This document shows, piece after piece, positions 2,294 through 6,593 of a stretch of 64,000 nucleotides of DNA (positions within the stretch are counted from its first letter, which is position 1; each line of letters begins with the position of its first letter). Source of the stretch: Chromobacterium sp. ATCC 53434 (GTDB lineage: Bacteria; Pseudomonadota; Gammaproteobacteria; Burkholderiales; Chromobacteriaceae); assembly GCF_002848345.1 (NCBI RefSeq), contig NZ_CP025429.1:3348001-3412000 (forward strand), given 5' to 3'. The position numbers were made by a program, and so were the translations under genes. Below the pieces are notes generated by a model. The model was not told the DNA's origin. It saw only the letters and a program-made list of their open reading frames with translations, and searched no databases.

Positions 2294-4375
2294 ATGCAAA
2301 CGTTTTTCCTCGCCCCGACCGGTTTCAACTCCGGCCTGACCTCGGTTTCGCTCGGCGCCATCCGTTCGCTCGAGCAGGCAGGACTGCGCGTCGGCTTCGT
2401 CAAGCCGATCGCCCAGGGCACCCAGGACGGCGAAAGCGAACGCTCGACCCACTTCGCCCACGCCATCTGCCGGCTGAACGCGCCGCAGCCCATCAGCATG
2501 GAGCGCGTCGAGCGCCTGCTGTCGCAAGGCCAGGTGGACCAGCTGATGGAAGAAGTGGTCAGCCTGTTCCAGCAGGTCGCCCAGAATGTCGACGCCGTCA
2601 TCGTCGAAGGCCTGGTGCCGGACCAGAAGCAGGTGTTCTCCACCTTCCTGAACACCAAGATCGCCCGTAATCTGCAGGCACAGACGGTGCTGGTCGGCTC
2701 CGCCGCCGGCCACGGCGCCACCGAGATCGCCGAACAGCTGGAAATGAACATCCAGGCCTTCGGCGCCCAGGGCGTCGCCGGCTACATCCTCAACCACGTC
2801 GCGCCCGACGTCGATCGCCAGCAACTGGCCGCCGACATCCAGAACAGCGGCAGCCTGAAAAAGGCCGGCCTGCCATTGTTGGGCGTGATTCCGCACCAGC
2901 CCGAGCTGCTGGCGCCGCGGACGCTGGACGTGGCCCGCCACCTGGACGCCCGCGTGCTGCACGCAGGCCGCCAGGCCAGCCGCCGCGTGCGCACCATGGT
3001 GGTGACCGCCCGTACCGCGCCCAACATCGTCAATCTGCTGAAGCCGGGCGCGCTGATCATCGCGCCGGGCGAGCGCGAGGACGTGGTGATGGCCACCTCG
3101 ATGGCGGCGATGAACGGCGTGCCGCTGGCCGGCCTGCTGCTGACCTGCGACTCCGAGCCGGATCCGCGCATCCAGCAGCTGTGCCACCAGGCCTTCACCG
3201 GCGGCCTGCCGGTGCTGGCCACCGCGATGAACACGATGGAAACCGCCAGCGCGCTGAACGCGATGAGCCCGCAGGTTCCGTCCGACGATCTGGAGCGGAT
3301 GGAAAAGGTGATCGAGCACGTCGCCGAATATCTGGACGTCTCCACGCTGAAGGAAAGCGTCGGCGAGCCGCGCGAGATCCGCCTGCCGCCGCCGGCCTTC
3401 CGCTTCCAGCTGATGGAAAAGGCCCGCAAGGCCAACAAGCGCATCGTGCTGCCGGAAGGCAACGAGCCGCGCACCATACAAGCCGCCGCCATCTGCCAGG
3501 AAAAAGGCATCGCCCGTTGCGTGCTCTTGGGCAACCGCTCCGAAATCCTGCAAGTGGCCGAAGCCCAGGGCGTGACGCTGCCGGAATCGGTCGAGATTCT
3601 CGATCCGAACGAAATCCGCGGCCGCTACGTCGATCCGATGGTGGACCTGCGCAAGGGCAAGGGCCTGAACGCGCCGATGGCGCTGGCCCAGCTGGAAGAC
3701 ACCGTGGTGCTGGGCACCATGATGCTGGCGCTGAACGAGGTGGACGGCCTGGTGTCCGGCGCCGTGCACACCACCGCCAACACCATCCGTCCGGCGCTGC
3801 AGCTGATCAAGACCGCGCCGGGTTCCAGCATCGTGTCGTCGGTGTTCTTCATGCTGATGCCGGAACAGGTATATGTCTACGGCGACTGCGCGGTGAACCC
3901 GGACCCGAGCGCCGAACAGCTGGCCGACATCGCGATCCAGTCCGCCGATTCGGCCGTCGCCTTCGGCATCACCCCTCGCGTGGCGATGATCTCCTACTCC
4001 ACCGGCTCGTCCGGCAGCGGCAGCGACGTGGAGAAGGTGCGCGAAGCCACCCGCATCGCCCAGGAAAAGCGTCCGGACCTGCTGATAGACGGCCCGATGC
4101 AGTACGACGCCGCCTCGGTGGAGTCGGTCGGCCGCCAGAAGGCGCCGGACAGCCAGGTGGCGGGCCGCGCCACCGTGTTCGTGTTCCCGGACCTGAACAC
4201 CGGCAACACCACCTACAAGGCGGTGCAGCGTTCCGCCAACGTGGTGTCGGTGGGACCGATGCTGCAAGGCCTGCGCAAGCCGGTGAACGATCTGTCGCGC
4301 GGCGCGCTGGTCGACGACATCGTCTACACCATCGCGCTGACCGCGCTGCAGGCGGAACAGCAAAACCAGGCTTGA
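2294..4375 (+). CDS. pta: Phosphate acetyltransferase, long form
   Basis: Interconverts acetyl-CoA plus phosphate and acetyl phosphate plus CoA, working with AckA. At 693 residues it is the long enterobacterial type: an N-terminal BioD/CobB-like P-loop domain (about 1-200, starting FFLAPTGFNSGLTS), a DRTGG regulatory domain (about 210-330) and the C-terminal catalytic PTA domain (about 370-690, with SGAVHTTANTIRPALQ). The N-terminal domains in the long form usually sense metabolites. GGAGAGG at 2282-2288 lies 5 nt before the ATG. The intrinsic terminator after the gene is interrupted by an insertion sequence. Confidence 0.96.
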   Translation: MQTFFLAPTGFNSGLTSVSLGAIRSLEQAGLRVGFVKPIAQGTQDGESERSTHFAHAICRLNAPQPISMERVERLLSQGQVDQLMEEVVSLFQQVAQNVDAVIVEGLVPDQKQVFSTFLNTKIARNLQAQTVLVGSAAGHGATEIAEQLEMNIQAFGAQGVAGYILNHVAPDVDRQQLAADIQNSGSLKKAGLPLLGVIPHQPELLAPRTLDVARHLDARVLHAGRQASRRVRTMVVTARTAPNIVNLLKPGALIIAPGEREDVVMATSMAAMNGVPLAGLLLTCDSEPDPRIQQLCHQAFTGGLPVLATAMNTMETASALNAMSPQVPSDDLERMEKVIEHVAEYLDVSTLKESVGEPREIRLPPPAFRFQLMEKARKANKRIVLPEGNEPRTIQAAAICQEKGIARCVLLGNRSEILQVAEAQGVTLPESVEILDPNEIRGRYVDPMVDLRKGKGLNAPMALAQLEDTVVLGTMMLALNEVDGLVSGAVHTTANTIRPALQLIKTAPGSSIVSSVFFMLMPEQVYVYGDCAVNPDPSAEQLADIAIQSADSAVAFGITPRVAMISYSTGSSGSGSDVEKVREATRIAQEKRPDLLIDGPMQYDAASVESVGRQKAPDSQVAGRATVFVFPDLNTGNTTYKAVQRSANVVSVGPMLQGLRKPVNDLSRGALVDDIVYTIALTALQAEQQNQA

Positions 4376-4394
4376 AGCCAAGCCAGCTGAACAA

Positions 4395-4412
4395 ACGGCC
4401 CGCAAGGGCCGT
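4395..4412. terminator. Terminator stem of pta, separated from its T-tract by the IS
   Basis: ACGGCCC (4395-4401), GCAA loop and GGGCCGT (4406-4412) form a perfect hairpin, but no T-run follows. TTTTC instead appears at 5787, directly beyond the right end of the insertion sequence. Removing the element restores a hairpin followed by TTTTC. It probably served both pta and the convergent gene at 5796-6593. Confidence 0.8.
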
Positions 4413-4418
4413 AATGTG

Positions 4419-4428
4419 ATGGTCAGCC
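4419..4428 (+). repeat. Left subterminal inverted repeat of the IS1111 element
   Basis: ATGGTCAGCC; its reverse complement is at 5774-5783. The outer flanks of the two repeats differ, so the repeats are subterminal. Confidence 0.85.
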
Positions 4429-4435
4429 TGATTCA

Positions 4436-4471
4436 ACAGCCCTGCAGGCGTAAGCTGGCAGGGCTGTTTTT
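4436..4471 (+). terminator. Intrinsic terminator inside the IS left end
   Basis: ACAGCCCTGC (4436-4445) pairs perfectly with GCAGGGCTGT (4458-4467), followed by TTTTTC. It lies inside the element, between the left inverted repeat and the transposase gene, so it can stop read-through from pta into the transposase. Confidence 0.85.
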
Positions 4472-4492
4472 CTTTCGATACAGGAGACCATC

Positions 4493-5521
4493 ATGGCAAC
4501 CGTCACCCTCATCGGCATCGATATCGGCAAACACCATTTCCACCTCGTCGCGCACGACACCAAGGGCCATGTGTTGCTCAAGCGCCAATTCGGCCGTCAC
4601 GCGCTGATCGACTTTCTCGCTCGTCACTCCGCCTGCCGCATCGTGATGGAAGCTTGCTGTGGCGCCCATTGGCTGGCGCGCAAACTGGCCGGCTTCGGCC
4701 ATACCGTGCAATTGATTGCTCCGCAGTACGTCCGTCTCTTCGTTCAGGGCAATAAGAACGATTTCCTCGATGCCCAAGCCATCTGTGAAGCCGCTTCCCG
4801 CCCCACCATGCGCTATGTCGCCGCCAAGTCGCCGGAACAGCAGGCGCTGGCGGCGCTGCACCGGCTGCGCGAGGCGCGAATCGGTGAACGCGTGCAGACG
4901 GGCAACCAGATCCATGCCTTACTGCTGGAGTTCGGCATCGCGCTGCCTCAGGGGGCGCAGGGTCTGCAACAGGCGCGTCTGCTGCTGCGGGAGCGCGAGG
5001 TTGCGCTACCGCCGATTGCCTGGCGGGTACTGGAGGCCCAGCTGTCGCACCATGATCAGTTGCAGCAACAAATCGATGATTGGGACCGCCAGATCACGGT
5101 ACTGGCGAAACAGGACGACGTGGCGCGGCGGCTGATGACGGTACCGGGCATCGGCCCGATCACGGCCAGCCAGCTGGCTGCCGATGCCGGCCAGGCCAAG
5201 GGCTATCATTGCGCCCGCGACTTCGCGGCTTCGTTGGGCTTGGTGCCGCGGCAGCATTCGACTGGCGGCAAATCGACGTTGCTGGGCATCAGCAAACGAG
5301 GCGATAAAGCGTTGCGCCGCTTATTGGTGCAATGCGCGCATGTGATCATGATGAGTGCCAGACGCTGGCACAGTGCGATGGCGGAGTGGACGGCGAAGCT
5401 GATGTTGCGCCGGCATGGCAATGTGGTGGCGTGTGCGGTGGCGAACAAACTGGCACGGGTGGTGTGGGCGATCCTGGCGCACGGTGGCGAGTACCGCCCC
5501 TATCCGGAGACGGGGAAGTAA
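4493..5521 (+). CDS. IS1111-group transposase (DEDD recombinase)
   Basis: 342 residues. The N-terminal DEDD/RuvC-like domain starts with GIDIGKHHF (first Asp near residue 9), continues with VMEACCG (Glu near 53) and KNDFLDA (Asp near 92-95). The C-terminal Transposase_20 domain has VPGIGPITASQLAADAG near residues 220-236 and a Ser-containing segment QHSTGGKSTLLGISKRG where the family's catalytic serine lies. In IS110/IS1111 elements this recombinase works with an RNA from the element's noncoding end that pairs with donor and target DNA. AGGAGA at 4482-4487 gives the ribosome site. The frame appears intact, so the copy may be active. Confidence 0.93.
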   Translation: MATVTLIGIDIGKHHFHLVAHDTKGHVLLKRQFGRHALIDFLARHSACRIVMEACCGAHWLARKLAGFGHTVQLIAPQYVRLFVQGNKNDFLDAQAICEAASRPTMRYVAAKSPEQQALAALHRLREARIGERVQTGNQIHALLLEFGIALPQGAQGLQQARLLLREREVALPPIAWRVLEAQLSHHDQLQQQIDDWDRQITVLAKQDDVARRLMTVPGIGPITASQLAADAGQAKGYHCARDFAASLGLVPRQHSTGGKSTLLGISKRGDKALRRLLVQCAHVIMMSARRWHSAMAEWTAKLMLRRHGNVVACAVANKLARVVWAILAHGGEYRPYPETGK

Positions 5522-5786
5522 AAACCGCCGGGATGTGACCCGGCGGTAGGAGCAAGCCTGCTTTTGCGACGACAGACGCTGATGACGACAAACGGCCTAA
5601 GGCCCGACGACGAACCTGGAATGAAAAACAGTCTGTGAGACTGTGGGCGTTTTAAGGTCCGTCGGGTGCGACTCACATCATGGACCGGGCGAGTATGCCC
5701 ACCAAGAGTCCGGATAGATTAGAGCAAGCCTACCTTGTCAGTATCGCTCAGTATTCTGGGGTTGCAAAACTCGGGCTGACCATAGA
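5522..5786 (+). ncRNA. Candidate guide RNA (seekRNA/bridge RNA) region of the IS1111 element
   Basis: Noncoding right end of the element. It opens with a strong hairpin (CCGCCGGG/CCCGGCGG, about 5524-5545) and holds several other short stems. Two segments match the insertion site. ACAAACGGCC at 5588-5597 is identical to the left host flank at 4391-4400. AATGAAAA at 5620-5627 is the reverse complement of TTTTCATT at 5787-5794 in the right flank. A left guide like the top strand and a right guide complementary to it is the arrangement known for IS110-family guide RNAs. The RNA ends are not determined; the function is inferred. Confidence 0.55.
5774..5783 (-). repeat. Right subterminal inverted repeat of the IS1111 element
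   Basis: GGCTGACCAT, reverse complement of the left repeat at 4419-4428. Extending inward, 13 of 15 positions match. Confidence 0.85.
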
Positions 5787-5795
5787 TTTTCATTG

Positions 5796-6593
5796 CTAGA
5801 TATTCATCGTCTGCGTGCTGGTCGCGCCTCCCCCCGCCGGCACGTCGATATCGTACGGCGTCCCGCCGAAGTCGACGTAGTGGCGGCTATTGAACGTCCA
5901 GTTGGCGCCGGTCCAGTACAGGAAATTGGTGACCACCCGCGCGCCCGGCACCGCCTGCCCCGGCACCGGCATGCCCCACGGATAGTTGTGCGGATTGTAA
6001 TCGGCCACCAGGGCCGGGACCGGCCAGCCTCCCGGCGGGGCGCCGGCGCCGGTCCCCCCGTCGGCGTAGGCGGCGAAACGGACCGTGTAGCCGGCGGCGG
6101 CCCAGGTGGCCAGGCTGCGGTGGTCGTGGTCGTGGACCACGCGCAGATGGCCCGCCGCCAGCGCCGGCGCCCCGACCGGCACCGCGCTCAGCACCATCAG
6201 CGAGCAGCCGTTCATGCCGGTGGTGAACAGCGTGCGCGCGTCGGCGGGGCCGGGCGCGACGGGAATGTCGCAGAAAGGCAGCGCCGCCAGCGCGGTGCCG
6301 CCGGCGCTGGCATGGCAGTACTGCGCGTCTATCGTCGTTACCACGCCGCCGGGCGGCGGCAGCGTCACCGTCGGCGGCCCGCCGACGGGCTGCATCCTCA
6401 GCTTGGGCAAGGCGCCGGGCAAGGGCAGGCCGCCGGTGCCGGTATCGGTCGTCAGCGTGAAGCGGGTGCGCAGATTGTTGACGGCCGGCAACGCGCCGCC
6501 GGGCATGCTCTGGGCGATCTGCGCCAGCGTGATCGGATTGGGAACGATGAAGGTGGCCGGGCCGGCCAGAAAATTCGGGACGTTGTCTTGCAT
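5796..6593 (-). CDS. Protein of unknown function with a GCS...H arrangement as in CNF/BLF1-type deamidases
   Basis: 265 residues, rich in Pro, Gly and Ala, with no signal peptide and no membrane segment. I do not recognise a named family. Around residues 150-185 it has TTGMNGCSLMVL followed, 24 residues after the Cys, by VVHDHDH. Cytotoxic necrotizing factor and Burkholderia lethal factor 1 have a catalytic Cys in an SGC-like turn and a His on a following strand, so a glutamine deamidase-like fold is possible; this is a weak analogy from motif spacing only. The start at 6593 is set by AGGAG 8-10 nt upstream; longer frames upstream lack a ribosome site. The stop lies 10 bp from the IS end. The gene is monocistronic and divergent from the chemoreceptor gene. 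Confidence 0.75.
   Translation of the reverse strand: MQDNVPNFLAGPATFIVPNPITLAQIAQSMPGGALPAVNNLRTRFTLTTDTGTGGLPLPGALPKLRMQPVGGPPTVTLPPPGGVVTTIDAQYCHASAGGTALAALPFCDIPVAPGPADARTLFTTGMNGCSLMVLSAVPVGAPALAAGHLRVVHDHDHRSLATWAAAGYTVRFAAYADGGTGAGAPPGGWPVPALVADYNPHNYPWGMPVPGQAVPGARVVTNFLYWTGANWTFNSRHYVDFGGTPYDIDVPAGGGATSTQTMNI

Follow-up and report, generated by a model that had tools for sequence, protein, structure and literature searches.

An IS1111-group insertion sequence between the hairpin and T tract of a predicted intrinsic terminator in Chromobacterium sp. ATCC 53434, and the guide RNA predicted in its right end

Described systems and anatomy of the element

Guidance by a seekRNA is established for the IS1111 elements ISEc11, ISPa11, ISKpn4 and ISPst6, whose guides follow the order top-strand complement, then bottom-strand match; the portions of the source available here give a GL-P----S(t)G motif and a transposase of 330-350 residues as family criteria, and a short linear site, attC ends and REP sequences as targets (PMC11187229). 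In the accessible sections on IS621, of the IS110 group, one bridge RNA with a target loop and a donor loop is encoded in the left end, its donor loop is a simple internal loop and its targets are palindromic REP sequences, a kind of target already known (PMC11208160, PMC1525189), and for IS1111 members a donor loop within a multiloop has been predicted (PMC11208160). Group IIC introns insert after intrinsic terminators and, as far as the excerpted text goes, are retroelements with a ribozyme and a reverse transcriptase and no DEDD recombinase, for which the hairpin is a recognition determinant (PMC3898094).

The window analyzed here is a stretch of 64,000 nucleotides of Chromobacterium sp. 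ATCC 53434 (NZ_CP025429.1, positions 3,348,001 to 3,412,000 of the forward strand), in which positions 4412-5786 are occupied by an IS1111-group insertion sequence of 1,375 bases, the register of its ends being taken from the self-insertion of a relative. It is composed, in order, of the 7-base extension TAATGTG, a 13-base subterminal inverted repeat, the transposase gene, a noncoding end, the second repeat and the 3-base extension AGA; the repeats are complementary at 12 of 13 positions, and the noncoding lengths are 265 bases on the right (5522-5786) and 81 bases on the left. The insertion point falls exactly between the stem and the T tract of a predicted terminator, and a long upstream reading frame ends 36 bases before the element. 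From its sequence, this frame is presumably pta. Features of the element and its site are, all on the forward strand:

4396-4411, forward: hairpin CGGCCC-GCAA-GGGCCG of the interrupted host terminator, the left target half (-12.9 kcal/mol; ends at the junction, 20 bases past the upstream stop codon)
4412-5786, forward: whole IS1111-group element (1,375 bases)
4412-4418, forward: left terminal extension TAATGTG, the left donor sequence
4419-4431, forward: left subterminal inverted repeat ATGGTCAGCCTGA (92% complementary to 5771-5783)
4437-4476, forward: terminator-like hairpin with T-rich tail inside the left end, a putative replacement terminator (-23.9 kcal/mol)
4493-5521, forward: transposase of DEDD type, 342 residues (PF01548, PF02371; motifs)
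5762-5786, forward: predicted circle-junction promoter, right half (TTGCAA at 5762-5767, 17-base spacer, GATAAT completed by 4412-4415; a match to consensus only)
5771-5783, forward: right subterminal inverted repeat
5787-5794, forward: T tract TTTTCATT of the same predicted host terminator, the right target half

Pfam domains PF01548 and PF02371 scored above the cut-off, and the protein holds only IS110-type domains; the D/E/D/D motifs DIGK, VMEA and NDFLDA were placed by eye, GLVPRQHSTG at residue 249 matches the IS1111 motif, and 342 residues lie within the 330-350 range. On its sequence the element is thus a member of the IS1111 family, with a DEDD transposase of fitting motif and length, subterminal repeats, a long downstream noncoding region, two target matches and a structured RNA. 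The nearest named relative in the searches comes from Chromobacterium sinusclupearum (83% over 301 residues). It agrees with the seekRNA-guided elements, as the available portions describe them, in a DEDD transposase of 330-350 residues, subterminal repeats, a downstream noncoding region, two short ordered target matches and no net target duplication, and differs from them in taking intrinsic terminators as targets and in carrying a terminator-like hairpin inside the left end (PMC11187229). The lack of net gain or loss of target bases was seen for a related element inside a noncoding end of its own type, other than the window copy. From IS621, as covered by the sections cited, it differs in having its RNA in the right end and another target class, and resembles it in having one RNA with a target and a donor loop (PMC11208160). 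With group IIC introns, by the excerpted account, it shares the position behind terminator hairpins (14 of 14 nearest sites), a likeness of target choice and not of membership, as it has no reverse transcriptase or catalytic intron RNA (PMC3898094).

IS4321 and IS5075, taken from plasmid records (transposase 46.7-47.3% identical), show the same noncoding-end layout, and their right guide TAAAACGGAA, at the same position in the noncoding end, fits the right flank TTCCGTTTTC at 9 of 10 bases. They differ from the window element in their target, reportedly the terminal inverted repeat of Tn21-family transposons, and in a left end without a comparable hairpin. In the open-licence PMC literature, intrinsic terminators were nowhere found among the targets given for IS1111 or IS110 elements, a weak indication that no such report exists, and term look-ups in the available text of PMC11187229, PMC9208149, PMC11208160 and PMC1525189 returned no report of terminators as an IS1111 target. 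RNA guidance of IS1111 elements being known already, what appears to be new here is the predicted terminator target class together with the terminator-like hairpin in the left end.

Three further observations concern the window and its genome. A distant transposase relative (42% identical) lies elsewhere in the genome (G000:C1:9713-10697; L003, L004) as two overlapping pieces in different frames and is probably broken. On the minus strand, a strong hairpin followed by TTTT at 5524-5547, directly 3' of the transposase gene, could be a stop for antisense transcription from the convergent gene on the right. A simple terminator scan returned three minus-strand sites; the left-end hairpin and the host hairpin cut by the element were not among them.

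Relatives, predicted RNA and guide segments

Relatives were sought among genome contigs and plasmids of the genus, family, order and phylum and of one gammaproteobacterial genus; the order and phylum searches gave a match in 3 of 399 and 5 of 398 genomes, the element's own included, and viral contigs yielded no relative. Thirty distinct noncoding-end types with transposase identity of at least 45% and recognizable ends were retained; in end reading 23 loci were dropped in which both ends were not found, seven Legionella/Legionellales loci had been left out beforehand, and duplicates of L001 and pta-end loci were not entered. In five loci of genome G816 (L129, L135, L140, L146 and L148) and in L113, L115 and L121, from three other genomes of the same genus, the left end was replaced from one shared point (ATACAAG|ATGGTC) by constant sequence of up to about 1,150 bases, with an apparent, oppositely directed start of an IS110-type transposase upstream, as judged by eye. 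These elements seem to have been hit repeatedly in their left end by a second insertion sequence.

A consensus fold was derived from 26 of the 30 noncoding ends (L037, L111 and L104 left out by choice and L026 for a wrongly picked end) and contains 36 pairs, 16 of them with compensatory changes, with 97.5% of cells paired. None of 500 shuffles reached the observed value on any of five measures, some of which favor the fold because it was derived from the alignment on which it was tested, and sliding the partners by 1-3 columns lowered paired cells to 30-43%. The single window sequence folds no better than its shuffles (z -1.23), and an Rfam search over 4300-5900 gave five hits with E of 0.037-0.88, no group II intron among them; all were below gathering scores, and assignment to an Rfam family was rejected. 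Judged from the covariation and the guide matches below, a seek/bridge RNA with two guides is very likely encoded in the noncoding right end and has the following predicted parts:

5588-5604, forward: conserved scaffold hairpin ACAAA-CGGCC-TAA-GGCC (its first strand belongs to the weak helix 2 and its final bases to helix 3), including the left segment of the initial annotation
5602-5609, forward: 5' strand of the stem closing the target loop, pairing with 5660-5667 (helix 3; 7 of 9 pairs with compensatory changes)
5620-5628, forward: right target guide AATGAAAAA, complement of the top strand on the right side of the insertion point (fits 8 of 9 at each of the element's two copies)
5629-5643, forward: inner stem-loop between the two guides (helix 5)
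5645-5653, forward: left target guide GGGCGTTTT, in top-strand sense from the stem foot into the T tract (fits 8 of 9 at each of the element's two copies)
5660-5667, forward: 3' strand of the stem closing the target loop (covariation)
5674-5678, forward: predicted left donor guide CACAT, complementary to 4414-4418
5677-5715, forward: stem-loops on the donor side (helices 6 and 7), one pairing about 5677-5686 with 5706-5715 and one an inner hairpin
5714-5720, forward: predicted right donor guide ATAGATT, in the same sense as 5782-5788

In the alignment two variable segments flank the paired inner stem; the first is the reverse complement of the right flank, and the second (5645-5653) has the sense of the left flank running on into the T tract, so that the window element has the top-strand complement first and the bottom-strand match second. 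The left guide is accordingly predicted to be GGGCGTTTT, located 3' of the right guide across the RNA loop. Guide fit was scored with one site per type, leaving out loci below 45% identity and 7 of the 30 types with an end of non-standard form (L037, L099, L111, L113, L115, L121 and L148). Over the 23 remaining types the right guide fitted its own target at 7.04 of 9 positions (5.56 when shuffled) and the left guide at 7.52 of 8 (5.69 when shuffled), values reached by 0 of 20,000 permutations in either case. The fit exceeds shared T-richness, since it holds within the 13 TTTT sites (p = 0.0015 for the right guide and 5e-5 for the left). Weak fits were L097 on the right (5 of 9) and L103 and L104 on the left (6 of 8), and at the two copies of the window element the left guide matches 8 of 9 positions, the mismatch differing between the copies. 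Relatives directed at other targets have guides to match: CATTTGAA for TTCAAATG in L092, TAAACGTCA for TGACGTTTA in L117 and GCAAAAGAA for TTCTTTTGC in L103.

Independent support for the place of the left guide and for the register of the ends comes from G816, where an element has entered another copy of its type within the left guide, between GCGGT and TTTTTAGG, and the flanks exactly rebuild the uninterrupted guide. The locus is L138 (G816:C1:1837000-1839598), and L111 has the same junction; since the guide copies the target, it can be targeted as well. In genome G157, L092-L094 carry guides for CAG followed by TTCAAATGGGC, a word present in at least two flanks that resemble related coding sequence, and this element appears by its sequence to be a member redirected from terminators to another target.

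Letters on the donor side vary with the ends of the elements. Types with TAATGTG have CACAT as left donor segment (5 of 5), the single type with TAATGGG has CCAT, and those with TAATGAG and a readable segment have CTCAT (16 of 16); on the right, ATACATT accompanies the right end ACA in 3 of 3 types. The fit is incomplete for L092 (TAATGAT, with TTCAT) and for the right ends AGG of L083 and AGT of L081. We read these covarying letters as the donor loop predicted in the part of PMC11208160 at hand.

The initial annotation had recognized an IS1111-group element with a terminator-like palindrome as its target, which the present comparison bears out, and had proposed ACAAACGGCC (5588-5597) and AATGAAAA (5620-5627) as the two guides of a bridge/seek RNA. 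The underlying matches are real: ACAAACGGCC is identical to the left flank at 4391-4400, AATGAAAA is the reverse complement of TTTTCATT at 5787-5794, and the terminator-like hairpin described around 5588 can be read as CGGCC-TAA-GGCC at 5593-5604. As a test it had named another copy in unrelated flanks with 5588-5627 unchanged. Such a copy is present in the same genome, complete and with a noncoding end identical over 265 bases, and its flanks, ...GCCACAGCCTTGCGCTGTGGCG on the left and TTTTCATTGC... on the right, show another stem that is again split from its T tract, the right flank, TTTTCATT, again starting TTTTCATTGC. This supports the right segment, which with one further A (AATGAAAA plus A, 5620-5628) is one of the guides, and removes the left one, as ACAAACGGCC and its complement are absent within 100 bases on either side of copy 2. 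The ten-base identity with the left flank was indeed improbable by naive chance (about 0.005 for the noncoding end against a 30-base flank), yet it fails this comparison, copies the far arm of the host hairpin at 12 or more bases from the insertion point, and belongs to a hairpin kept in most relatives, including those with other targets, so that we regard 5588-5597 as almost certainly not a guide. From the sequences compared, the match of ACAAACGGCC is a coincidence of two GGCC palindromes and 5588-5597 belongs to the RNA scaffold; intrinsic terminators as the likely target class had been missed. An empty site with five T, which would have lengthened the right match to ten bases, was also rejected, as the end register from the self-insertion of the relative gives four T (GGGCCG followed by TTTTCATT) and a right-guide fit of 8 of 9.

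At the orthologous place of copy 2 in another species (L152) the same hairpin stands uninterrupted and is directly followed by TTTTTT (GCCACAGCCTTGCGCTGTGGCGTTTTTTATTTC), and in other species the gene at this site is followed by other hairpins with T tracts. For pta, no empty site was seen among 24 pta-end loci inspected in 18 other genomes of the genus; as the loci were printed in contig orientation, only the 11 with a plus-strand match show the terminator side, and all of these have other terminators. No true empty site was seen from a strain of the same species. The empty site behind pta is predicted to read GGGCCGTTTTCATTGC.

Terminators as a target class

The nearest elements (transposase 67-100% identical) comprise the window element and 13 copies of it or its closest kin, leaving out L085 (left end missing), L021 and L082 (contig ends) and partial copies in G010. 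Of their 14 readable sites all 14 have a hairpin that runs up to the junction, with energies of -12.9 to -22.4 kcal/mol. In the host background of the same loci, hairpins of -8 or below precede 37 of 467 TTT positions and 734 of 9,770 other positions, and 3.8% of random positions over all loci (n=7,949) reach the threshold. A frame of at least 190 codons ends 27-129 bases upstream in the direction of the element at all 14 sites, and at 13 of them a further frame of 80 codons or more runs towards the element from the right and stops within 100 bases of it, the frames having been called mechanically, with some possibly spurious; this arrangement suggests bidirectional terminators between convergent genes. 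The target thus appears from the sequences to be a class of intrinsic terminators, predicted to stop transcription. Two loci from one Achromobacter genome (L028 and L031) are shortened elements of 1,216 and 1,162 bases; their noncoding ends are nearly identical, they lie at two different terminator hairpins, and they may be copies with internal deletions that were mobilized in trans.

The same gene-end positions could arise without terminator targeting if insertion were wider and selection kept the harmless events, since insertions within genes would be purged and the 14 nearest sites all lie at gene ends. We consider this very improbable as the sole explanation: it accounts neither for the exact register that all 14 sites share, with the stem on one side and the T tract on the other, nor for the fit of guides to targets. 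Selection may nevertheless add to targeting in less GC-rich genomes.

How closely the guide word coincides with terminators depends on the genome. In G007, of the same genus, eight copies each lie behind a different hairpin ending in GGGCT, and the guide word GGGCTTTTT occurs ten times in 400 kb, nine times at hairpins and once within the left guide of an element itself. Of the nine, two are a single hairpin counted on both strands and a third is the stem next to an insertion already present. In this GC-rich genome the word is, on sequence, close to a synonym for terminator. Among more distant elements 11 of 33 sites have a hairpin at -8 or below, 11 of the 33 being copies from one genome; in G816 the corresponding word GCGGTTTTT stands at a hairpin in 2 of 14 cases in 400 kb sampled, and 4 of 11 element sites have a hairpin at -8 or below while 7 have none. 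With words and sites in G816 mostly lacking hairpins, the terminator address does not hold for every member or genome.

These counts also bear on whether the recombinase recognizes the terminator hairpin itself, as a DNA cruciform or hairpin, with the guides in a minor role, as is thought for group IIC introns, whose insertion at terminators is reportedly dealt with in Robart 2007. The hairpin at 14 of 14 nearest sites speaks for such recognition, as does the use of the hairpin as a recognition determinant by group IIC introns in the excerpt cited (PMC3898094), and the G816 element sites exceed the background words in hairpins (4 of 11 vs 2 of 14), numbers too few to decide. Recognition mainly of structure is nonetheless unlikely, given guides that covary with targets over 23 types, elements with matching guides at plain sites (e.g. 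L093/L094 and L117) and the 7 of 11 G816 sites without a hairpin at -8. On the word and site counts in G007 and G816, a sequence-guided mechanism is best supported, in which the hairpin is a property of the target class and not a requirement, with some preference for structure possible.

Left-end hairpin and proposed mechanism

Directly inside the left repeat the window element carries a hairpin with a T-rich tail, CAGCCCTGC...GCAGGGCTG TTTTTCTTTC. A left-end hairpin of -8 or stronger with a T-rich tail was found in 20 of 25 types tested (5 of the 30 were skipped for non-standard left ends), two of which fall outside the following comparison for a doubtful right end. It is present in 13 of 13 types found at hairpin sites, each at -14.7 kcal/mol or stronger, and in 5 of 10 types not at hairpins (L026, L036, L097, L101 and L103; missing in L092, L104, L107, L110 and L117). 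The left ends of L029, L030, L041 and L105 lack such a hairpin, that of L216 reaches -3.7, and in two IS4321/IS5075 copies the best hairpin with a T-rich tail is no better than 0.4 kcal/mol. The association between left-end hairpin and hairpin site points to a replacement of the broken terminator that would also insulate the transposase gene; shared ancestry could explain it as well.

Joined ends of the element would form TTGCAA-17-GATAAT, a predicted circle-junction promoter upstream of the left-end hairpin, where the hairpin would also hinder expression of the transposase. It may accordingly control transposase expression, as an attenuator of the junction promoter or a block to translation, instead of replacing a terminator; its place between this promoter and the transposase start and its occurrence in 5 of 10 types not at hairpins agree with such control, which is disfavored by the contrast of 13 of 13 types at hairpins with 5 of 10 others lacking it and by its absence from the IS4321/IS5075 copies and from L029, L030, L041 and L105. 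We hold expression control to be possible but the less probable of the two roles, which are not exclusive.

Taken together, it is highly probable that the window holds an IS1111-group element placed where hairpin and T tract of a predicted intrinsic terminator meet, likely aimed there by the seek/bridge RNA predicted in its right end. Positions, matches, covariation and target class are read from the sequences, and from them we infer production of the RNA, its pairing, its driving of transposition and the replacement of the terminator. Both guides would lie in one internal loop of the predicted RNA: to the right of the insertion point AATGAAAAA would pair with TTTTCATT of the top strand, and GGGCGTTTT would pair with the bottom strand over the stem foot and the T's. 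The two ends of the element itself would be recognized by a predicted donor loop, with CACAT at 5674 and ATAGATT at 5714. Intrinsic terminators have in common a word made of a GC-rich stem foot and the T tract after it, so that a fixed guide of 8-9 bases could serve as a general terminator address, at least in a GC-rich genome. The direction of the terminator would set that of the element, so that the transposase gene comes to lie behind and in line with the host gene, and the left-end hairpin with its T-rich tail would take the place of the interrupted terminator and protect the transposase gene against read-through. Guided landing at terminators would thereby put the element where harm is small.

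A wider reading, which we somewhat favor, is that an RNA-guided IS1111 lineage uses intrinsic terminators as a general docking address and brings a built-in replacement terminator, a natural form of safe-harbor integration. A guide of about nine bases, copied from a generic half-terminator (GC foot and T tract), would then fix the direction of insertion behind host genes and offer on the order of a hundred sites per genome, by the nine hairpin words in the 400-kb sample. A recombinase with one fixed guide could in this way find many sites of one functional class through a word common to that class, and how RNA-guided insertion sequences limit harm to their hosts would become directly testable. 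The aligned set of elements with known and new targets would place the target and donor guides of IS1111 RNAs more firmly than one element can, and in laboratory strains the terminator guide pair may provide a natural safe-harbor rule for bridge-RNA tools.
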